The notes: generated by a model not told the origin, from the sequence alone. Shown: positions 1,202-60,619, counted from the stretch's first letter. The stretch: 64,000 bases of DNA from Elusimicrobiota bacterium (GCA_016212885.1 JACRDO010000095.1:1-64000); one strand, 5' to 3'. Numbers and translations: made by a program.

Positions 1202-2146
1202 ATGTTGATTCTTACCCTTTTAGCAGGCCTCTGCTTCCTGCCGTCCGCTCAGGCTTGGGCGGCCCAGGCCGAGCCCAAGGACACGGACCTCGTTCTCATC
1301 TTCGACGCGAGCGGCTCCATGAACGAGAGCGTCCAGGGCGGGCGCAAGCTCGACGTGGCGAAGGACGCGATGTGGAAGTTCGTGGACTCGCTTCCCAAGA
1401 ACGTCAACATCGGGCTCGTGGCCTTGGGGGGCTACTGCAGCGTGACCACCCTTCTGCCGGTCAAGAAATCCGCCCCGGCCGCCAGGCAGGAGCTCAAGAA
1501 GGCCATGGCGGGCCTCCAGGCCAACGGCAGCACCCCCATCGGCGGGGCCTTGGACCGGGCCGCGCAGCTCCTGGCCGCCTCCAAGAACAAGAAGCGCATC
1601 GTCGCGATGACGGACGGCGACGAGACCTGCTCCGGGCCCCAGCTCGCCGCGGCCTCGGACGCGGCGTGGCGCCAGGGCGTCAAGGTCTACGCGATCGGCT
1701 TCGCCTTCGGCAAGGAGCCCAGCCTCAACTTCCGCCGCATCGGCATCTACAAGGACGCCAACGACGAGAAGCAGCTCGCCTCCGTGTTCACGGACATCCG
1801 CAAGACGCTCGAGCGCGAGACCGGGAAGTTCGACGAATCCCAGTCGGCGCAGGCCGAGAAGCCGCCGGTTTCCTTCGTCGGCAGGATGGGCCGTTTCAAG
1901 CCCTCCGGCGGGGAGAGGGCGGGCAGGCTGTTCACCAGCCTCCAGCTCAGCTCTTCCTTCGAGCGCCGTTTCGACGAGAATGACCGCTTCAAGGTGCTCG
2001 AGCACGGCTACGACGTGAAGTTCAACGAGGCCGACTTCAAAGCGGAGAAAGCCGAGGTGCTGAGGGTGAGGCTGGAGGAGAAGCTCAATTTCCAGTTCAG
2101 CGGGGCGGAAGGCTTCGTATTCGCCGACGACGTGGTGATTGAATAA
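1202..2146 (+). CDS. Secreted von Willebrand factor A domain protein
   Basis: Signal peptide MLILTLLAGLCFLPSAQAWA; MIDAS-like DASGSMN; TDGDETC. Confidence 0.85.
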   Translation: MLILTLLAGLCFLPSAQAWAAQAEPKDTDLVLIFDASGSMNESVQGGRKLDVAKDAMWKFVDSLPKNVNIGLVALGGYCSVTTLLPVKKSAPAARQELKKAMAGLQANGSTPIGGALDRAAQLLAASKNKKRIVAMTDGDETCSGPQLAAASDAAWRQGVKVYAIGFAFGKEPSLNFRRIGIYKDANDEKQLASVFTDIRKTLERETGKFDESQSAQAEKPPVSFVGRMGRFKPSGGERAGRLFTSLQLSSSFERRFDENDRFKVLEHGYDVKFNEADFKAEKAEVLRVRLEEKLNFQFSGAEGFVFADDVVIE

Positions 2147-2161
2147 GTATCAGGAGGGCTT

Positions 2162-2911
2162 ATGTGGCAGAGATTCATGCGGGTGGTGCGTTCCTTCGTC
2201 GGCTTCTTCATCAGCACGATGGAGGATCCCAAGCTGATCCTTGAGCAGACGGTGCGGGACATGCAGGACAAGATTCCGGTCATGAACCAGGGCCTGGCCA
2301 AGGCCCGGGGCGGCATCATCATGATCGAGGGCGAGATCAAGCAGTACGAGCGGGAGATCAGCCTGCTGACCGCCAAGGTCAAGGCCTGCGTCATCGGCAA
2401 GGACGCCAGCCTCGGCGGGCAGTACGCCATCCGCCTCAAGAAGACCCAGGAAGCCCTGGCCCGCGACAAGGAGCAGCTCGCCGCGGCCAAGGCCGGCTAC
2501 GAGTCCCTGCTCAAGATGAAGGAGAAGTTCATGCGCGAGATGAAGGCCAAGACCGACGAGGCCATGGCCGCCATCCGCGACGCGGAGGCTTCCAAGTGGA
2601 AATCGGAGCTCGCCGACACCTTCGAGCAGTTCGAGGTGGCCGGCACCGACGCCACCTACGACGAGATGGTCGGAAAGCTGCGCCAGAAATTGGCAGAGGC
2701 GGAGGGCCGCCTCGCCATGGCAGCTGAGAGCGTGGACCAGAAGGCCATCGCGATCGACGAGCAGGCGGAGGCCCTGGAAGGGCAGGAGCTGTTCAAGAAT
2801 TTCCAGATGGAGATGGGCATCACGGACGCCGGCTCCGGCGCCGCGGAGGATAAGAAGGAAGAAGCCAAAAAGACCATCGGCGCAAAAGAAGCCCAGAAGG
2901 ACCAAGCTTGA
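2162..2911 (+). CDS. PspA/IM30 (phage shock protein A / Vipp1) family protein
   Basis: Coiled-coil protein with N-terminal FMRVVRSFVGFFISTMEDPKLILEQTVRDMQDKI typical of PspA/IM30. Confidence 0.85.
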   Translation: MWQRFMRVVRSFVGFFISTMEDPKLILEQTVRDMQDKIPVMNQGLAKARGGIIMIEGEIKQYEREISLLTAKVKACVIGKDASLGGQYAIRLKKTQEALARDKEQLAAAKAGYESLLKMKEKFMREMKAKTDEAMAAIRDAEASKWKSELADTFEQFEVAGTDATYDEMVGKLRQKLAEAEGRLAMAAESVDQKAIAIDEQAEALEGQELFKNFQMEMGITDAGSGAAEDKKEEAKKTIGAKEAQKDQA

Positions 2912-2920
2912 TTCAGGAGA

Positions 2921-2972
2921 CCCCCTCACGACAGCCGCGCATCCGTTTTCCACTTAGCGGCGAGGGGGTTTT
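2921..2972 (+). terminator. Terminator/attenuator-like hairpin followed by TTTT between pspA and the SBP gene
   Basis: CCCCCTC...GCCGC / GCGGC GAGGGGG followed by TTTT. Confidence 0.5.
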
Positions 2973-3012
2973 CGGGGGTAATGGAGGCGTTGTTTAGCAG
3001 GAGGCAAAAGAC

Positions 3013-4704
3013 ATGGAATTGAAACTCGGCGGAAAGATCGCTCTGCTTTTGGTGGTCCTGGCCTTGGGCCTGGGCGCCCTCTACAAGTTCGGGCTCATCA
3101 AGAAGGGCATGCTCCCCATGGGGGCGTCCATCAACAAGGACACCCTCGACAAGATCCGCAAGGGCGAGGAGACCCCCACCACGGCCAAGAACTACTCCTT
3201 CGTGGCCAAGCAGTCCATCACCGAGGTCAAGGGCACGAGCAGCTATAAGTTCGAGAACAACACCGTGGTCTTCCCGATCAACATCTGGGGCGGCTGGGCG
3301 CCCATCATCGCCGCCAACAACGGCTTCGGCCCGAACAAGGACTCCGTCTTCTTCAAGAACTACGGCTTCCTGGTGGACCTCAAGCTCATCGACGACCCGG
3401 TGGCCGCGCGCGACGCCTTCGCCTCCGGCCAGTCCCACGTCCTCTGGGGGACCCTCGACATGATCGCCCTCTTCGCCCCGGGGCTCTCCAGGGACTCCAG
3501 GACCATGCCCATCGTCTTCCAGCAGATCGACTGGTCGAACGGCGGGGACGGCATCGCGGTCCGCGCGCACATCAACGAGGCGAAGGACCTGCGCGGCAGG
3601 ACCATCGTGCTCGCGCAGAACTCGCCCTCGCACTACTACATCCTAAGCGTCCTCACCGACGCCGGCATCCAGCCCTCCGAGGTCAACTTCAGGTTCACCG
3701 CCACGGCCTTCGAGGCGGCCAAGGCCTTCGTGGACAACCAGGACATCGACGCCTGCGTCTCCTGGGCGCCCGACATCTACAACATCGTCGACGAGAAGTA
3801 CGGCGGCAAGAAGGGCGGCGTGGCCGGGGCGCGGCTGCTCACGACCACGCGGGACGCCTCCGAGCTCATCGCCGACGTCTGGGCCGCGCGCGCGGACTTC
3901 GCCCGCGACCACCGCGAGATCATCAAGGGCCTGGTGGCCGGCATCTTCAAGGGCTACGACATCGCCAAGGCCAACCCGGACAAGGTCGCGGCCCTCATGG
4001 CCAAGGGCTACGGCGTCTCGGCGGAGGAGGCGAAGGGCATGATGGGAGACGCCCACCAGACCAACTTCGCCGAGAACAAGAAGTTCTTCCTCGTCAAGGA
4101 CAACCCCGCGAACTTCGCCCGCACCTGGGCAGCTGCGAGCTACGTCTACAAGGCCTACGGGGCCATCGGCACCCCCGCTCACGCCGAGGAGATCGTGGAC
4201 ACCTCGGTTTTAGACGAGCTCGAAGGCCAGTTCCCCGGCCACAAGGACGAATATATCCCGACCTTCAACAAGGTCAACATCTCCCGCATGAAGCTCGAGA
4301 GCACGCCCATCCTCACCAAGGCCGTCATGATCCAGTTCCCGCCCAACCGCTGGGACCTAGACCGGAGCTACGACCGCACCATCGACAACACGCTGGAGGA
4401 GGTCGCCAAGCTCGCCGGCAAGTTCGCCGCGGCCCGCGTCATGATCGAGGGCAACGTGGACACGAGCCGCAAGATCGAGTTCCAGCGCGAGGGCCCGCGG
4501 GTCTTCAAGGAGATGTCGCTCGCGGTGCAGGAGCTCAGCGAGCGGCGCGCGGAATCCGTCCGGCAGGCGATCGTGGTGAGGTACAAGTTCAACCCGAACA
4601 AGCTCACGGTCATCGGCAACGGCTGGGAGAACCCCGCCTCCCTGAACGACCACGCGAAGAACCGGCGGGTGGAGATCAAGGTCTATCCGCCCGAGGCCGA
4701 ATAG
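3013..4704 (+). CDS. Membrane-anchored ABC substrate-binding protein (NMT1/taurine-like) fused to a C-terminal OmpA-like domain
   Basis: N-terminal TM helix KIALLLVVLALGLGALYKFGLI; periplasmic binding fold (NIWGGWAPIIAANNGF, DPVAARDAFASGQ, VSWAPDIY); C-terminal RAESVRQAIVVRYKFNPNKLTVIGNGWENP...NRRVEIKV typical of OmpA-like domains. Confidence 0.8.
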   Translation: MELKLGGKIALLLVVLALGLGALYKFGLIKKGMLPMGASINKDTLDKIRKGEETPTTAKNYSFVAKQSITEVKGTSSYKFENNTVVFPINIWGGWAPIIAANNGFGPNKDSVFFKNYGFLVDLKLIDDPVAARDAFASGQSHVLWGTLDMIALFAPGLSRDSRTMPIVFQQIDWSNGGDGIAVRAHINEAKDLRGRTIVLAQNSPSHYYILSVLTDAGIQPSEVNFRFTATAFEAAKAFVDNQDIDACVSWAPDIYNIVDEKYGGKKGGVAGARLLTTTRDASELIADVWAARADFARDHREIIKGLVAGIFKGYDIAKANPDKVAALMAKGYGVSAEEAKGMMGDAHQTNFAENKKFFLVKDNPANFARTWAAASYVYKAYGAIGTPAHAEEIVDTSVLDELEGQFPGHKDEYIPTFNKVNISRMKLESTPILTKAVMIQFPPNRWDLDRSYDRTIDNTLEEVAKLAGKFAAARVMIEGNVDTSRKIEFQREGPRVFKEMSLAVQELSERRAESVRQAIVVRYKFNPNKLTVIGNGWENPASLNDHAKNRRVEIKVYPPEAE

Positions 4705-4713
4705 GGGCGAAGC

Positions 4714-5532
4714 TTGACCCTCAAGGAAACCTTCAAGATCCGGGCGGAGAGCCTGCGCCGGCGCAGGTTCCTGCTGGGGTTCGCGAGCGTCTTCTCGGCG
4801 CTGTTCATCTGGTGGCTGCTCACAACCGGCTCCCAGGTCGAGACCCGCATCCTCAGCCCCCAGATCCTGCCCAACCCGCTCGAGGTCCTGAGCTCGTTTA
4901 AGGCGCTCATCGCGGAACGGGGCCTGCTCATGGGCATCGGCTACAGCTTCTTCCGCACGACCGTGGGCTTCATGATCGCGGTCGCCGTGGCCGTCCCGCT
5001 GGGCATCCTGATGGCGTCATTTACGCCGGTGAGGGAGTTCTTCCGGCCGTTGTCCACGATCGGGGGCTACGTCCCGATCGCGGTGCTGGTCCCACTCACG
5101 CTGTCCTGGTTCGGCCTGGGCGAGAAGCAGAAGTACATCTTTCTCGCCATGGCCACCTTCGTGCTGCTGCTGCCGCTCGTCGTCAGCGCCATGGACCGGG
5201 TGGATGAGGTCTACCTGCAGACCGCCTATACCCTCGGCGCGACGCGGAGGCAGGCCATCCTGGAAGTGCTCTTGCCCATCGCGCTCGTCGACATCTACGA
5301 CGGCCTCTGCCTGACCTACGGGGTCGGCTGGGGCTACATCATCATGGCGGAGGTCATCGACGCGAAGTACGGCCTGGGCAGCCTCATCATCAGCTCGCAG
5401 AGGCGCGGGCCCTACGAGCACGTCTACGCGGTCCTCATCGTCATCGTGCTCATCAGCGTCCTGATCAACTGGACATTGAATGCGGTGGGCGGCTGGCTCT
5501 TCCCTTATCGGGAAACGGGGAGCGGGCGATGA
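4714..5532 (+). CDS. ABC transporter permease, SsuC/TauC type (TTG start)
   Basis: Binding-protein-dependent transport permease signature; EAA loop [27 protein letters not shown]. Confidence 0.85.
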
Positions 5533-6449
5533 GCGGCCCCGGCGGCGAGAGCATGGACGAAAAATCCGAGAAGCCCCAGCCCGCGCCTGCCGCGCCCAAG
5601 CTAGCCGCTTCCTCCGGAAGCGCCGACGCGGCAGGCGCGGGGCGAGAGGAGAACGACTCGCGCCCCGTCATCGACTGCCGCGGCGTCACCAAGATCTTCA
5701 AAGACCCCCGCACGGGCAAGGACTTCATCGCCCTCGAAGACGTCTCCTTCGTCATCGACGACATCCCGGACACCGGGGAGCTCATCACCATCCTCGGGCC
5801 CTCCGGCTGCGGCAAGAGCACGCTCCTCAACATCATCGCGGGTTTGGGTCCCCATTACCCGCCCACTAAGGGCGAGATACTCATGAAAGGCCGGCCCATC
5901 GCCGGGCCGGGCTCGGAGCGCGGCATGGTGTTCCAGAGCTACTCCTCCTTCCCCTGCTACACGATCCTCGAGAACGTGGCCTTCGGCCTGAAGCTCAAGG
6001 GCGTTCCCGAAAAAGAGCGGGAGGGCATCGCAGCTGAGTGGATCAAGAAGGTCGAGCTCTCCGGGTTCGAGAAGAAGTACCCCAAGGAGCTCTCCGGAGG
6101 CATGCGCCAGCGCGTGGCCCTCGCTCGGACCTTGGCCGTCAAGCCTCGCATCATCCTGATGGACGAGCCCTTCGGGGCGCTCGACCGGATCACCCGCTGG
6201 GACATGCAGGATTTGCTCGTCGAGCTCTGGAGGGAGATCGAGGCCACGGTCTTCCTGGTCACCCACGACATCCCGGAGGCCGTCTTCCTGGGCGACCGGG
6301 TCTTCCTGATGAGCCCGAACCCGGGACGCCTCCTCGAGATCATCAAGCTGCCGAGGCCGACCGAGAAGGCCGCGCACATGCAGAGGACGGCGAAGTTCGC
6401 GGAGATCGTCAACGAGATCAGCCGCAAGGTCGAGGCCATCCGCCAATAA
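5529..6449 (+). CDS. ABC transporter ATPase, SsuB/TauB type
   Basis: Walker [10 protein letters not shown]; signature LSGGMRQR; Walker [13 protein letters not shown]. 4-bp overlap with the permease. Confidence 0.9.
5579..5644. repeat. In-frame inverted repeat in the ABC ATPase N-terminal region
   Basis: CCCGCGCCTGCCGCG ... CGCGGCAGGCGCGGG arms within the codons for [21 protein letters not shown]. Confidence 0.6.
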
Positions 6450-7288
6450 TGGCTGAGAAGACCAGCTACGTCAAAGAAGCCTTCAAGCGCCAGGAAAACC
6501 TGATCGCCCTGGCCGGCTTCGCCGCCGCCGGCGCCTTGTTCAACCCCGGCTTCCTGTTCCTTGGAGGGGCCATCGAGGTCGTCTACCTCTGGATGGTCGC
6601 GGGCAATCCGAGGTTCAAGCGCGTCGTGGACTCGGAGAAGAACCGAAGCAGCCTGCTCCTGGGCCAGAACGAGCGGGTGCGCATGCTCTCCACGCTGCCG
6701 GAAGCCGAGCGCGAGAGATACCTTGCCCTGGCGGACATCCGTCAGCGGGTCTACGACTCCTGGCAGTCGCGCGACTCCGTCACGCAGAGCCTGCTCCAGC
6801 CCAGCGTGGACAAGCTCGACTACCTCCTCGACACCTTCCTGCGCGCCCAGCTGACCCTCCAGCGCATGCGCGAGCATCTCTCAGGCAGCGACTTTGGGGA
6901 CCTCGAGAAGCAGGCCAAGATGCTCGAAACCGAGATCGCTCAGCGCCGCCTGCCGGACAAGCTCACGGAGGTGAAGTCCAAGAACCTGGAGATCCTCAAG
7001 CAGCGCATCGCGCGCCTCAAGAAACTGCAGGAGGACATCGCCGTGGTGCGCACCCAGCTCGACACGCTCGAGAACGCGATCCGCTTCGTCAACGACCAGA
7101 CGGTCTCCCTGAGCGACCCCCAGCAGATCACCAACGAGATCGACCGCGTCGCCTCGGAGGTGGGGGCGACCGAGAAATCCATCCAGGACGTCGAGTCGTT
7201 CCTGGGAACCCAGCAGGAGACCGACGAGAAGCGCATCGGCGAGATCCGCGCGGAGCAGCGCCAGGCGGAGGGGGAGCGCCCGGGATGA
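6450..7288 (+). CDS. Hypothetical membrane/coiled-coil protein
   Basis: Starts [48 protein letters not shown], then long heptad-rich region; adjacent to the ATPase stop, 4-bp overlap with the AAA gene. Confidence 0.75.
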
Positions 7289-9066
7289 ACCTGGAACAAT
7301 TCCCCAAGTGGGCCCAGGAGCTCGCGGACAAGTACGTGAGCGGGGCCTCGTCTTTGTTCGTGCTCTACGGCAACGTCGACGATTGGGTCCCCATGAAGGA
7401 CGTATCGAACCTTCCAAACAGCGTAGGTTCGATACGTCCAAACCTACAACGTTCGGAAGGTTTGGACGCGCGGAGCCTGCGCTACGTGTCCCTCCCGGAG
7501 TTCCTCAAGCAGGCCGTGTTCGGCACACGGGACGCGGTCATCCAGTACGACCAGGGCGGCGGCATCACGATCGGCTCGGAGGCGGCCCAGGACTTCTACC
7601 GGACCGTGGAGGCGATGGACACCGTCTCCGGCACGACCTTCTCAAAGCGCCTCCCGAAGAACCCGGCCGACGCGCTCCTCGTCATCGACCGGTTCATCCG
7701 CTCGAAGACCGCGGGCGAGGGCCGCAAGAAGGCCGGCATCGCGGTCATCATCTCCTTCGCGCACATGGTCGCCCCGCGCGGGGAGATATCCTTCATGAAC
7801 CAGGAGGACTGCCGCACCCTCATCACCCTGCAGAAGTGGGCCAGCGACCCGCTCTTCGCGCGCTCGGACGTGACCATCGTGCTGGCGACCGCAAGCCTGC
7901 AGGAGCTCAACGAGGCCTTAGTCAACAACCCCTTCACCTCCAAGATCCACGTCCCGCTCCCGGACGAAGAGGAGCGCGCCGAGTTCATCCGGGCCTCCCA
8001 GATCCCGGTCAAATACGAAGGCCTGACCCCGGAGACCTTCGCGCGGCAGACCAACGCCCTCTCCCGCGCGGACATCGAGGTGATGCTGAGGGGCGCCCAG
8101 CGGGCCGATAGGCTCGACCTGAATTTCGTGAGCGCCAAGAAGAAAGAGCTCATCGAGAAGTCCTGCTTCGGGCTGCTCGAGTTCCTGGAGCCCCGCTACA
8201 CCCTCGACGCGGTCGAGGGCCTCTGCGCGGCCAAGAGCCGCCTGCGCGAGGACATCCAGCTCATCAAGAAAGGCTGCTGGGACGCCCTGCCGATGGGCTA
8301 TCTGCTCTGCGGGCCGGTCGGCACCGGCAAGACATTTTTGAGCACCTGCGCCATCGGCGAGCTCGGCATCCCGTGCGTGCAGATGCTCAACTTCCGCTCG
8401 AAGTGGGTCGGCGCCACGGAGGGGAACCTCGAGAAGATCCTCATGACCCTGCGCGCCCTCGGGCCCGTGGGCGTGATCATCGACGAAGCCGACGCCTTCA
8501 TGGGCAGCCGGGAGCAGGAGGGGGACTCCGGCACCTCCGGCCGGATCTTCGCGCAGTTCGCGAGCCAAATGGGCGACACCAAGTACCGCGGCAAGATCCT
8601 CTGGTTCCTGCTCACCTGCCGGCCGGACCTCCTGCCCGTGGACATCAAGCGCCAGGGCCGCGTGGAGGTCCACATCCCGCTCTTCTACCCCCAGACCGCG
8701 GAGGAGAAGGTCCAGCTTTTCGTAGCCATGTCGAAAAAAGCCAAGTGGCCCGTAGAGCCGGCGGACGTGGATGTCCGATGGGTGGAAGGCAAGAAGCTCT
8801 CCGGAGCGGACATCGAAGCGGTCCTCGTCGGCGCCAAACGCAAGAGCCTTCTCGACGGCGAATCCAAGCCCGGGAAGGAGTACCTCCGCCAGGCCGCGGA
8901 AAGCTTCATCCCCGCGGCCAGCGCCGCGCAGGTTCAATACCAGGAGCTCGCGGCGGTCATCGAGTGCACGGACCTCTCGTTTTTGCCGGAGAACTACCGC
9001 AAGGCGGACCGGACGGAGATCCTGAAGGAATTCAACCGCCTGCGGGCCCTGCTGGAGGTGCGCTGA
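7285..9066 (+). CDS. AAA-family ATPase with probable degenerate N-terminal module
   Basis: Walker A CGPVGTGKTF, Walker B VGVIIDEADAF, FLLTCRPDLLP; first half lacks Walker A. Contains an in-frame Family A palindromic element (VSNLPNSVGSIRPNLQRSEGLDAR). Confidence 0.85.
   Translation: MNLEQFPKWAQELADKYVSGASSLFVLYGNVDDWVPMKDVSNLPNSVGSIRPNLQRSEGLDARSLRYVSLPEFLKQAVFGTRDAVIQYDQGGGITIGSEAAQDFYRTVEAMDTVSGTTFSKRLPKNPADALLVIDRFIRSKTAGEGRKKAGIAVIISFAHMVAPRGEISFMNQEDCRTLITLQKWASDPLFARSDVTIVLATASLQELNEALVNNPFTSKIHVPLPDEEERAEFIRASQIPVKYEGLTPETFARQTNALSRADIEVMLRGAQRADRLDLNFVSAKKKELIEKSCFGLLEFLEPRYTLDAVEGLCAAKSRLREDIQLIKKGCWDALPMGYLLCGPVGTGKTFLSTCAIGELGIPCVQMLNFRSKWVGATEGNLEKILMTLRALGPVGVIIDEADAFMGSREQEGDSGTSGRIFAQFASQMGDTKYRGKILWFLLTCRPDLLPVDIKRQGRVEVHIPLFYPQTAEEKVQLFVAMSKKAKWPVEPADVDVRWVEGKKLSGADIEAVLVGAKRKSLLDGESKPGKEYLRQAAESFIPAASAAQVQYQELAAVIECTDLSFLPENYRKADRTEILKEFNRLRALLEVR
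7401..7468. repeat. Palindromic element family A, copy A1 (two back-to-back hairpins) inside the AAA ATPase gene
   Basis: cgtatcgaac-cttccaaacagcgtag-gttcgatacg followed by cgtccaaacc-tacaacgttcggaa-ggtttggacg. Confidence 0.92.
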
Positions 9067-9782
9067 TGGGATTCAAGGACTGGGTCGACCGCTACGTCAT
9101 CAGCGTGCCGGCTTCCCGCGCCGCGGCGCCCGAGACCGAGATCGAGCCGGGCAGGGTCCCCATGCAGGCGACCGCCAAGGTCGGCAGGATCTCCGTGGAC
9201 ATGGACGAATCCGCGCTGAAGGCTCTGCCGGCCGCCCAGGCGGCCGAGGACGTGCCCTTCGACAAGATCTTCGCCGCGGCCAAGATCCCGGTCCCCGCGC
9301 ATAAGTTCACGGTCGAGAAGATCGCAGAGATGCTCGCTCACCCCAAGCTTGCCTCCCTGGACCAGGCTGGGAAGGCCGCCGCGGCCCTCGTGGCGCTCGA
9401 GTCCCAAGGCGTCACCATCCAGAGCGTCATCGAAGAGGCGGCCAAGAAGGACCGCGCCCTGGACGTATTCGAGAACGTCCAGCGCGAGCGCCTCCGGCAG
9501 TTCGCCCGGCAGAAGGAGGAGGAGAACCGCAAGCTCGCCTGCGAGATCGAGAAGAACAAGAAGGCCGTCGCCGCGGTCGAGCGCAGCGTCGAGGCGTGGG
9601 GCGAGAAGAAGCGCCTCAAGGAGCGCGAGATCTACGACGTCGTCGCTCACTTCACGACGGAGAATCCCATCACCGCCGCGCCGCAGGCGCCCCCTGCTTC
9701 CGGCGCGCCCTTGCGGGAAGCGGCTTCGCCCCAGGGCCCATCGGCCAAGGTTCGGATCACGGATCTGACGCAGAGCGCCTAA
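9066..9782 (+). CDS. Hypothetical helical protein, last gene of the PspA/ABC/AAA cluster
   Basis: Long ORF directly overlapping the AAA stop; codon usage consistent with neighbours. Confidence 0.7.
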   Translation: MGFKDWVDRYVISVPASRAAAPETEIEPGRVPMQATAKVGRISVDMDESALKALPAAQAAEDVPFDKIFAAAKIPVPAHKFTVEKIAEMLAHPKLASLDQAGKAAAALVALESQGVTIQSVIEEAAKKDRALDVFENVQRERLRQFARQKEEENRKLACEIEKNKKAVAAVERSVEAWGEKKRLKEREIYDVVAHFTTENPITAAPQAPPASGAPLREAASPQGPSAKVRITDLTQSA

Positions 9783-9839: not shown

Positions 9840-10200
9840 GGCCGGCTATCTGATGCGCTCAAGAAAATAGTACGTGCCCCTCCCGTTTATTACTAGAGTG
9901 TCGCCATTTGGCTTGAAAGGCTGGCTAAACGGTGTGTACCTGCAATTGGTTTCAAAAGCCTTGACTTCTTTCTCCTGGACGCCGATATCCTCCAGCCATG
10001 TTCTCGAGAAGTTGCTTCGGCAAAAAGCCTCACTGGCCTATCTCCTGTTCCATAGCGACTGCTCCGCTCTCCGGCCCCCTCAAGAAATGAGCGAAGCGAG
10101 CGTTTTGACGCTGCGGCATATTTTACTTTGCGCAAGCCGTTCTTTGGTTTATGACCTCTCGACGACGATAGCCCAAGGCGGCTACTTGATGCGCTCCAAA
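9840..10200 (-). pseudogene. Decayed tandem copy of the downstream lysozyme-end/lipoprotein module
   Basis: DNA similarity of 9846-10020 to the 3' end of the lipoprotein gene (TTTGGCTTGAAA, TTGGTTTCAAAAGCCTTGA, ATATCCTCC) and of the 10030-10080 region to the lysozyme 3' end (ctatctcctgttccatagcgactgctccgctc). Confidence 0.75.
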
Positions 10201-10778
10201 ATATAATATGCACCATCCCAACTTGTTATGAGATTCTGCAAATTTGGCTTGAAATAGGTAACGAAAGGTGTCCCTTCGCAGTTGGTTTCAAAAGCCTTGA
10301 TTTCCGTTTCTTTGACCCCAATGTCCTCCGGCCTTGTCGGGAAAAGATAATTTTTCGCGTTGACTGTCTTGGAGCGGATTATTTTCAGGTCGCAAGGCTC
10401 CATATCATAACCTGGCACGATGTGTGTATATATAATCGGCCGACCGGGGCGAATATTGAGTATTTTCCCTAGCGCGGGCTCTGCATCCTCCGGGCCCGCT
10501 GCGATGACGCCGCGGCTGAAGCCGTATCTAGCTACCTTCCATTTTCCCTCGAGTTCTTTGAAATTCGCATCAAAATCCTCACTGTCCCATTTCTCCTCGA
10601 CCTCGGCAGAAGTCGTGATCGGGACAGCCGGCGCCGCGACCTTTGGCTTTTCCCGGAAAGTGTCCACGATCTCAATAACGAAATCGCAGGCTGAAAAGCT
10701 CGCAGCCAGAGCCGCTAGCGTAGTCAAGCGAAAGACGCCTTCGGCTGACAGCCTCATGCGGTCTATCTCCTGTCCCAT
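10182..10778 (-). CDS. Putative lipoprotein, hypothetical
   Basis: N-terminal hydrophobic stretch ending FSACDF (lipobox-like); 198 aa. Confidence 0.65.
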   Translation of the reverse strand: MGQEIDRMRLSAEGVFRLTTLAALAASFSACDFVIEIVDTFREKPKVAAPAVPITTSAEVEEKWDSEDFDANFKELEGKWKVARYGFSRGVIAAGPEDAEPALGKILNIRPGRPIIYTHIVPGYDMEPCDLKIIRSKTVNAKNYLFPTRPEDIGVKETEIKAFETNCEGTPFVTYFKPNLQNLITSWDGAYYILERIK

Positions 10779-43399: not shown

Positions 43400-45937
43400 C
43401 TAGCCGAGTTTCCCGAGGCGCCAGCGCAGGTACAGGTAGGCGATCCCGATCGGGATCAGCATGAAGGAGAGGTAGGTGAACGGCGTCAGCCCGGCCGCGG
43501 CCTTGAAGAGGTACTTCATCCCCACGAGGCCGAGGGTGGTGATGGCCAGAGAGGCCGAGCCCAAGAATCCCATCGCGTCCGCCATGTCTTCCTTGCGCGG
43601 GACCCGGGCCTGGAAGAAGCTCTGCAGCTTGAGCGTCGAGATGACCTGCGCGATCCCGAACGGGATCAGGGCAAGGGCGGGGAGAGTCAGGCTCGAGGCC
43701 CATGAGAGGAAGGCCGGGAGCGCCGCCATGGCGCCCAAGGTCGGCAGCGGCAGGGCCAGCGTGGCGAGCAGGGAGAGGCCCCCGGTCCCGAGGAGGAGCC
43801 AGCGCAGGAGCGACTTCCTGAGGATTTGCGCTTCCTGCGCATCGTCGATCTGCCCGGACTCCTTGCCCTTGGCGATCCGGTTGCCCTCCATCGTCATCAG
43901 CAGCCCGCCCAGCAGGCCGCCCGCGCTGTAGAGGCCGGTCAGCCAGCCGCTCACCGAGGTGGCCAGCTCCGAGTTGGCGGCGCCCACCAGCGCCAGCGCG
44001 TAGCCGGGCGCCATCATCTGATAAAGGAAAGGGTTGAGCATCATGACCAGGGAGTAGGCGATGAAGCTCAGGCGCAGGGCCGGAGCCCTCCAGACGAGCT
44101 TCGCGCCGCGGCCGATCTTTTGGAAGAAGCCCTTGAAGACGGCCCCTACGCCGCCCGGGCGGCTCTGCGGCCGCTCGCTCTTCAACTCGGATTTAGGAGG
44201 CAGGCGCAGGGTCTTCCATACGATCATCGCGGAAGCGAGAGCCGCGACCGGGAATGCGATCAGCGCGGGCATGAAGCCGAAGCTTGACACCACGATCCCG
44301 GTCACGATCGGCCCGGCGATCCCGATGATCTCGACGAGGGTGTGCTCGATGGACCAGAACCTCTCGAGCGCCGAGTTCTTCTGGCCCACCAAAAGCGGCG
44401 GGATGCTGTTGAGCGCCGTGATCGTCACCCCGAAAATCAGCGCGTTGACGGAGTAGAAGCCGATCATCAGAGGAAGGGTGATGTGCCCTGTGGCGAGCAG
44501 GCCGATGAGCGCCGAGATGGAAGCCAGCCTGAGGAGCATGGAGCCGAGGTACGTCTTCCTGATCCCGAACTTCTCGACTAGGACGGGCCCGATCTGCCGC
44601 CCGATGATGCCCGCGATGGAGGAGAACACCGCGAGCTGGGCCACGACGGTGAAATCGCCGAAGGCCTTCTGCACCAGGGTGGGCATCGCCGCGCCGAGGG
44701 CCTCGATGCCCACCTGGGCCACCAGCAGGGAGGAGATGAACCACCAGGCCACCTTGCCCAGAGCGGAGCGCTCCTTCTTCTCCTGCGCGGGCGCCGGGTC
44801 CGTCTTCGGAGCCTCTTGGATGTTGGCCGCGTTCGGGATGGCTGACGGGGGGAGGGAGAGCTGAGCCTCCGCGCCGACCGCCTCGGAAACCGGGGAGAGC
44901 TGAGCCTCCGCAGCTTCGACGCTCTCGAGCGCCAGCTGAGCCGGGGTCCCGGCGGCCTTGCCGGCTTGGACCTTGAAAGCCAAGCCCGCGTTCTCATCCG
45001 GAAGGCTGATGACGCGCCGGCCCAGGAACGGGATCTTCGAGAGCCAGCCTCCGGCCTTCACCGGAGCCTGGGAGGGGGAAGCTGTCTCGCCTTGCGCTTC
45101 TGCGCCGCTCAGCTCGCCCAGGGCGCGCGCGTCGGACCGGAGATCCTCGGAATCCTGCCGTCCGGAGAAGAGCCTCTTCAGCTCTTCGAAGCGCCGGCCC
45201 AGGGTGTTCGGTCGGCCGCGCAGCTGCTGAAGGGAAGAGGCGCCTTGCTCGACGACGGGGACCTCTCCGACATCCGTTGTGCGGACATCGCCCGACTGCG
45301 CGGCCGCAGGGACCCCGCGCGGACCGACCAAGGACGCGGCAGGCGCCGACACCGAAGCGTCCATGGCGCGTTCGCGCAAGACCGCGGGGGCCTGGAAAGG
45401 GACGGGCTGCATCCCGCCGCCGGAGGGCCGCAGAAGCGGGACCCGCTGGGGCGCTGCCCCAGGGGCGGCGATGACGGAGGCGGGCAGCACGAGCGACGCG
45501 GCGGAGGGCGAAGCGGTGACGGAGGGCTCCACGACCGGGGTCGGCACGGAGAGGGGGGAGACGAGCCCGTTCGAGATATTCCCCATGAAGCCCGGAAGGC
45601 TGGTCTGGATGCGGATGTTCTGCAGGCTGAGCGCTCCAACTCCAGCCGCGCCGAGGTTCAGGCCGCCGACCGGGGTGTTGACCTTGATCGGGGTCGGAGC
45701 GGTCTGCGCCGCGGCCTGGGTGGGGCCGATGCCTGGGGCCGTGAGGAGGAGCGCGAGCGCCAGAGCGAGGCAAAGCGCGCGCTTGGCCGTACCAAACATC
45801 CAAAATATGTAGGTTCGGTACGTCCCGTCCAAACCTTCCGAACGTCGTAGGTTTGGACGTATCGAACCTACGCAGTTTGGAAAGTTCGATACGAACCAAC
45901 GTCGTTTGGATGTTCGGGACGCCGTAAGGACCTTCAT
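43400..45937 (-). CDS. MFS transporter with long secreted-type Pro/Ala-rich N-terminal extension
   Basis: Signal-peptide-like MFGTAKRALCLALALALLLTAPGIGPTQAAAQ, about 300 aa low-complexity extension, then multi-TM MFS domain. True start may be MFGT, inside a Family A element. Confidence 0.75.
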   Translation of the reverse strand: MKVLTASRTSKRRWFVSNFPNCVGSIRPNLRRSEGLDGTYRTYIFWMFGTAKRALCLALALALLLTAPGIGPTQAAAQTAPTPIKVNTPVGGLNLGAAGVGALSLQNIRIQTSLPGFMGNISNGLVSPLSVPTPVVEPSVTASPSAASLVLPASVIAAPGAAPQRVPLLRPSGGGMQPVPFQAPAVLRERAMDASVSAPAASLVGPRGVPAAAQSGDVRTTDVGEVPVVEQGASSLQQLRGRPNTLGRRFEELKRLFSGRQDSEDLRSDARALGELSGAEAQGETASPSQAPVKAGGWLSKIPFLGRRVISLPDENAGLAFKVQAGKAAGTPAQLALESVEAAEAQLSPVSEAVGAEAQLSLPPSAIPNAANIQEAPKTDPAPAQEKKERSALGKVAWWFISSLLVAQVGIEALGAAMPTLVQKAFGDFTVVAQLAVFSSIAGIIGRQIGPVLVEKFGIRKTYLGSMLLRLASISALIGLLATGHITLPLMIGFYSVNALIFGVTITALNSIPPLLVGQKNSALERFWSIEHTLVEIIGIAGPIVTGIVVSSFGFMPALIAFPVAALASAMIVWKTLRLPPKSELKSERPQSRPGGVGAVFKGFFQKIGRGAKLVWRAPALRLSFIAYSLVMMLNPFLYQMMAPGYALALVGAANSELATSVSGWLTGLYSAGGLLGGLLMTMEGNRIAKGKESGQIDDAQEAQILRKSLLRWLLLGTGGLSLLATLALPLPTLGAMAALPAFLSWASSLTLPALALIPFGIAQVISTLKLQSFFQARVPRKEDMADAMGFLGSASLAITTLGLVGMKYLFKAAAGLTPFTYLSFMLIPIGIAYLYLRWRLGKLG
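45788..45922. repeat. Palindromic element family A, long copy A6 (several hairpin units)
   Basis: About 100 bp nearly identical to the reverse complement of copy A8 (60483-60619). Confidence 0.93.
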
Positions 45938-60482: not shown

Positions 60483-60619
60483 CGTCCCGAACATCCAAAC
60501 GACGTTGGTTCGTATCGAACTTTCCAAACTGCGTAGGTTCGATACGTCCAAACCTACGACGTTCGGAAGGTTTGGACGGAACGTCCCAAACCTACGAATC
60601 CCCGATGTTTGGAACGTCC
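60483..60619. repeat. Palindromic element family A, long copy A8, immediately upstream of plsY
   Basis: At least four hairpin units; reverse complement nearly identical to A6. Extra half unit ttcggaaagtttggacgac at about 60431-60450. Confidence 0.95.

Follow-up and report, generated by a model that had tools for sequence, protein, structure and literature searches.

PspA is an established member of the ESCRT-III superfamily (PMC8281802), and ESCRT systems with Vps4 are described in PMC11188069 as confined to archaea and eukaryotes. According to Liu et al. 2021 (PMC8281802), it was not clear if PspF acts on PspA in the manner of Vps4, or if an equivalent ATPase exists for Vipp1. The closest described neighbourhood occupies one paragraph in the main text of Ravi et al. 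2024 (PMC11237479), which presents an operon of PspA, a double AAA protein with an inactive first domain, an ABC ATPase, a permease, a PBPB-OmpA fusion and a "Snf7 homolog with a TM segment", exemplified by OGG56892.1, and proposes ESCRT-like remodelling coupled to solute transport. Among archaea, the Halo_adaptin loci (PMC11188069) likewise place a PspA-like protein upstream of a Cdc48-related ATPase without an MIT domain, but they carry winged-helix and adaptin-like genes, with neither an ABC transporter nor an OmpA fusion reported in the passage on them.

Here we describe a locus in a 64,000-nucleotide stretch of an Elusimicrobiota genome (the window, by which we mean the whole of the DNA analysed). 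It shares with the neighbourhood of Ravi et al. PspA, the AAA protein with a dead first domain, the ABC ATPase, the permease and the solute-binding protein (SBP) fused to an OmpA-like domain, so that the core combination is already known from one published paragraph, as an experimentally untested idea. The main text of that paper makes no mention of a vWA gene, gene H, Elusimicrobia, Riflebacteria, a modularity of dyad and transporter or a PspA tail motif; as far as this text and the literature searched show, the vWA gene, gene H, the PspA tail, the distribution over two phyla and the division into modules are new. In the same literature, an SBP-OmpA fusion of this kind was found only in Ravi et al., and no paper was found that mentions PspA together with Riflebacteria. 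The locus also shares with ESCRT-III/Vps4 the pairing of a polymer protein of the ESCRT-III superfamily with a classical-clade AAA ATPase encoded next to it and, by our hypothesis, a short C-terminal recruitment motif, whereas its ATPase has two AAA domains, no detected MIT and CDC48 as the best match. With the PspFABC phage-shock operon it has PspA in common, but its PspA has a different C-terminus, and PspB, PspC and PspF were absent by Pfam search among the eight genes and two neighbours checked.

The sequence-only reading had delimited an eight-gene cluster with short gaps and 1-4 bp overlaps, and every reading frame and spacing was confirmed: eight uninterrupted ORFs, A to H, lie on the plus strand at 1202-9782, free of internal stops and with intergene distances of +15, +101, +9, -4, -1, -4 and -1 bp. 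Its family assignments (vWA, PspA, SBP-OmpA, permease, ABC ATPase and AAA) also held, as the matches to VWA, PspA_IM30, NMT1 and OmpA, BPD_transp_1, ABC_tran and AAA exceed the Pfam cut-offs for genes A-E and G; no convincing Pfam family match was obtained for F and H. A sigma-70-like promoter, TTGACC-N17-TAGAAT with a TG ahead of the -10 element, was identified on the plus strand at 1166-1194. The ATG of gene A starts 7 nt past it, and the transcript of this gene is possibly leaderless. The same promoter elements precede gene A in a congener (L037), and TTGCAG-N18-TAGAAT, read by eye, is located ahead of gene A in L170, where the upstream gene is unrelated to that of the window. Because the promoter stands between the phosphoesterase at 197-1159 and gene A, and the upstream gene differs in G275, the phosphoesterase is left out and the operon starts at the vWA gene. 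The cluster is thus a single operon, made up of the promoter at 1166-1194 and the genes at 1202-9782, and its arrangement is more than chance, because the gene order is kept in relatives. A hairpin located 3' of the PspA gene (2912-2985; z -2.2, with equally stable structures in 4/200 shuffles) is not claimed as a conserved attenuator, since the gap between B and C is nearly missing in L037 and L039.

Within Elusimicrobia, the order A to H is conserved in three further genomes, being intact in G228, which belongs to the same genus as the window, and in G084, and split over two contigs in G275. The AAA and SBP-OmpA genes occur in an identical set of 4/294 Elusimicrobiota genomes, and F is present in those four and in G305. 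PspA exceeds its family cut-off in 3/198 genomes of Elusimicrobiota, two of which carry the cluster. Relatives in a second phylum were found by a pattern scan with Elusimicrobia-derived patterns and by tblastn, on contigs mostly named Riflebacteria or Ozemobacter. The sample taken there comprises 39 species of one phylum, called Riflebacteria here after the names of the records. Among these 39 species the AAA gene occurs in 24, and the common core consists of SBP-OmpA, PspA, the permease, the ABC ATPase, the TM-coiled-coil protein and the double AAA protein, usually in the order C1-PspA-C2-D-E-F-G, with SBP-OmpA duplicated. In G338 the row reads AAA, PspA, SBP-OmpA, vWA, SBP-OmpA, free SBP, permease, ATPase and an F-like gene; since a vWA gene is present in this row, it is part of the system in the second phylum as well. 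The neighbours are therefore conserved together in Elusimicrobia and Riflebacteria, the point on which the sequence-only reading had staked its case.

Co-occurrence among Riflebacteria divides the genes further. The AAA gene associates with C (counts 18/6/1/14, Fisher p 4e-5) and F with C still more closely (18/1/1/19, p 6e-9), both values ignoring kinship, and the genomes sampled are related, so that the occurrences are not independent. At least two of the discordant cases are contig ends or divergent copies. G336 is the one genome that has the transporter and F without an AAA hit, and its contig ends inside F. The AAA gene was also found without a PspA hit in G312 and G334, with both loci on short contigs. 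In four genomes (G313, G327, G328 and G329) the PspA gene lies next to the AAA gene, with neither SBP-OmpA nor F found. Because this dyad stands alone without C and F in four genomes, it constitutes a unit, and the operon consists of two modules, PspA-AAA and C-D-E-F, which are usually joined.

Gene B (2162-2911, plus strand) encodes a divergent PspA/IM30 protein of 249 aa, the sole PspA match within its own genome. The PspA domain PF04012 is matched over its full length (49.6 bits against a cut-off of 33.9, residues 2-208), and the profile of the B family matches PDB chains of Vipp1/PspA with E-values down to 7e-8, although identity between the PspAs of the two phyla is only ~21%. After a variable linker, the C-terminal tail (2864-2911, plus strand) ends with KKTIGA, an instance of a conserved [KR]x[ILM]G motif, and is a candidate ATPase-recruitment tail. 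Tails conforming to [KR]x[ILM]G[PMAN] were observed in 21/21 genomes examined with the operon or the dyad, including QRGLGPMEKN, QRNMGPMMRE, EKELGPRQ and EKTMGP. The motif was defined from a first alignment and further genomes, and was thus first spotted in the sequences it describes, except for five PspAs examined later (G311, G321, G323, G336 and G275), all of which carry it. In G311 and G321 the AAA gene is located on a different contig from the transporter-PspA genes. By comparison, the motif is found in 0/16 other PspA tails, namely those of 15 second-phylum PspA-family proteins, mostly with ends of the type DDELxxLKxxMKK, and that of G320, whose divergent PspA lacks the motif and whose genome has no AAA hit. 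When 16 tails were shuffled, a mean of 0.22 and a maximum of 3 matches were obtained against 16 observed, an inflated contrast given that the pattern was partly defined on these tails. Weak tandem PspA_IM30 matches were seen in long open frames (424-1009 aa) of cluster-free Elusimicrobia (L135 and L140-L143; G181, G189), which are possibly PspA-like repeat proteins.

Gene G (7285-9066, plus strand) encodes a double AAA protein. Its second domain, matched by PF00004 at residues 339-465, shows in the alignment an invariant Walker A (GPVGTGKT), Walker B (IIDEAD), pore loop (KWVG) and Arg fingers, whereas in the first domain an invariant GN..DW replaces Walker A and Walker B is missing. The best reading of these motifs is that the first domain would be dead and the second active. 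Both domains of the predicted model (mean pLDDT 76, pTM 0.66) align with Rix7 (residues 3-562, Z 19.1, rmsd 5.0 over 379 residues) and also with p97; the resemblance of the first domain to the second appears in the fold comparison only, a profile-profile comparison of the two for duplication being not significant. CDC48 is the best family match, at 82 bits and under the curated cut-off of 802, and G has the two AAA domains with an active second one expected of a CDC48/p97-like protein. However, the N-terminal substrate-recognition domain of CDC48/p97 is missing, and there is no room for it because the first AAA-like domain starts within ~25 residues. Against CdvC the score is 56 bits (cut-off 650), no MIT or Vps4_C match was found in Pfam, and with two AAA-like domains G falls outside the Vps4/CdvC type; it is thus no Vps4, yet it may work like one. 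In most Riflebacteria operons a stand-alone HATPase_c_2 (RsbW-like) gene lies directly after the AAA gene (L043:11803-12261 and equivalents in L044-L050), usually convergent to it.

The transporter module opens with gene C (3013-4704, plus strand), a 563-aa SBP anchored by an N-terminal TM segment and fused to an OmpA-like domain (NMT1 and OmpA; for the latter 36.4 bits, cut-off 27.2). The SBP domain retains ~50% identity between phyla, more than any other part of the system. The OmpA domain aligns with Omp38 (3td3) as an OmpA-like peptidoglycan-binding domain, and its Asp/Arg pair (GxxD, LSxxRA), D483 and R512, is invariant in 13 sequences. We take this pair to be equivalent to the Asp/Arg pair with which Omp38 contacts peptidoglycan; since it is conserved, C likely binds peptidoglycan. 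In G338 a single operon (L101:3447-8366) combines two proteins of the SBP-OmpA type with an exported SBP that stands by itself, which might represent an intermediate step in how the fusion evolved. Gene D (4714-5532, plus strand, TTG start) encodes a NitT/TauT-type permease with an EAA-like loop, matched by BPD_transp_1 and, below cut-off, TauC/SaoP-like, and gene E (5529-6449, plus strand) an ABC ATPase (ABC_tran) with Walker A GPSGCGKS, signature LSGGMRQR and Walker B IILMDEP, so that all the canonical features of an ABC importer are retained in D and E. The label "SsuABC-like" given in the sequence-only reading therefore stands at the level of fold, with an NMT1-type SBP, BPD permease and ABC ATPase as in SsuABC, TauABC and NtrABC, but none of these equivalog cut-offs was reached (SsuA 56/163.5, TauC 105/342, TauB 243/357 and NtrCD 206/292 bits), and the SBP differs in being TM-anchored, OmpA-fused and embedded with PspA-AAA. 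That reading had assigned the combination to no named system; indeed none carries a name, and no characterised transporter operon was matched, though the core was already described by Ravi et al. Gene F (6449-7288, plus strand) encodes a 279-aa protein with two predicted N-terminal TM helices and a cytosolic helical coiled coil, and tracks the transporter genes. It may be the "Snf7 with TM" of Ravi et al., although no similarity to PspA or Snf7 was detected by Pfam, HMM, hhalign (4%) or Foldseek (none at E<=0.001); its AlphaFold model, with a mean pLDDT of 74 a weak basis for comparison with the Snf7/PspA fold, has its best hits to designed helical proteins (Z 11.5), within the range expected of helical bundles.

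Gene A (1202-2146, plus strand) encodes a 314-aa vWA-domain protein with a complete MIDAS (DASGS, T, TDG) and, read by eye, a signal sequence at the protein start, and is apparently exported. The vWA proteins of L037, L039 and L170 show 57-66% identity and that of L101 26%, with the MIDAS residues invariant wherever these sequences align. In MoxR-vWA pairs the vWA protein is cytosolic and the AAA protein belongs to the MoxR clade; the signal-like start of A and the matches of the AAA protein to PF00004 and CDC48 rather than MoxR set the locus apart from such chaperone pairs. Gene H (9066-9782, plus strand), a soluble helical protein of 238 aa, accompanies only the Elusimicrobia form of the operon and occurs in 4/56 genomes of the order, the same four as AAA and SBP-OmpA. 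Most second-phylum operons lack both H and the vWA gene; the latter was found in one of them (G338), and no H homolog was recognised downstream of the AAA gene in G337.

The reading that we prefer, at about even odds (roughly 0.5), is that the operon encodes an ESCRT-like apparatus that remodels the membrane and is docked on an ABC importer anchored to peptidoglycan. The sequences show the gene content and order, the co-inheritance, the conserved motifs, the domain architecture and the retained catalytic and peptidoglycan-contact residues; from these we infer the physical interactions, the direction of coupling and the substrate as follows. PspA would polymerise on the inner face of the inner membrane via its N-terminal amphipathic helix. 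G would have a dead first ring as scaffold and an active second one that grips polypeptide with its KWVG pore loop; it would seize PspA by the [KR]x[ILM]G tail and extract subunits, giving an ATP-driven turnover of the coat such as Vps4 provides for ESCRT-III. F might couple this pair to the permease and ATPase D-E, while C would capture the solute and anchor the complex to peptidoglycan through its OmpA domain, the exported vWA protein being a putative adhesion partner in the periplasm; at the sites of this contact between importer and wall, the remodeller would then stabilise or shape the membrane. Remodelling of PspA by G is favoured by the gene order kept in two phyla, the co-inheritance, the stand-alone dyad, the tail motif and the Rix7/p97 fold of G. 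Against it, PspA rods of other species dissociate and have a weak ATPase activity of their own (PMC11746142), so that a dedicated ATPase is not obligatory, and the tail could have a binding partner other than G. A link between an ABC transporter and PspA membrane remodelling had been offered in the sequence-only reading and is still the best one, as the genes travel together in two phyla, although the coupling itself is what we infer. More tentatively, the dyad would be a true bacterial ESCRT-III/ATPase pair: the PspA tail, evolved independently of MIT-MIM, would recruit a p97-like double AAA whose first ring is a pseudo-ring, and the pair would have been coupled in two phyla to an importer anchored to peptidoglycan.

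Alternatively, the genes might form an ordinary NitT/TauT-type uptake operon devoid of any ESCRT-like cycle. PspA would then stop protons from leaking around a busy importer, and the AAA protein would be a quality-control unfoldase removing damaged transporter subunits or F. The complete importer features of D and E agree with this, as do the near-constant pairing of C and F and the greater conservation of the SBP domain than of PspA, a difference that would fit solute capture as the conserved function. We consider it unlikely, with the PspA-AAA pair persisting in four genomes that have no transporter and the PspA tail motif tracking the AAA protein rather than the transporter. Somewhat more doubtful is a sensor of envelope tension or wall distance, with C and the vWA protein binding peptidoglycan, the ABC proteins and F signalling the mechanical state to PspA in an FtsEX-like manner, and PspA sensing membrane damage, so that mechanotransmission takes the place of import. 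The TM anchor of C, its retained Asp and Arg, the apparently exported vWA protein with its MIDAS and the relative with a pair of SBP-OmpA proteins and a stand-alone SBP gene next to vWA would all suit such a sensor, but the permease belongs to the type I importer family and not to the type VII mechanotransmitters, the strictly conserved SBP motifs imply a ligand, and the operon has no regulator gene.

Under the preferred reading of a remodeller docked on an importer, the operon resembles, in bacterial form, the ESCRT machine with which eukaryotes cut membranes, linked here to a transporter of nutrient type that is held at the cell wall. A minimal PspA-AAA pair from bacteria, with its candidate recruitment tail, makes the question of a Vps4-like ATPase testable in vitro, and its link to an importer anchored in the wall suggests functions other than the repair of stress damage.

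Two repeat elements were noted at the locus. A degenerate repeat lies downstream of the operon at 9850-10300 of the window, with similar stretches near 9905-9965 and 10240-10300, and is possibly a duplicated gene end. Gene G itself carries, inserted in frame at 7401-7468, a dispersed 68-bp element that adds 22 aa, predicted disordered and absent from all relatives. This element consists of two adjacent hairpins, is REPIN-like or Rickettsia-palindromic-element-like, and has about 40 near-full-length copies in the genome, further ones in the window being located at 45826-45893 and 60511-60578.
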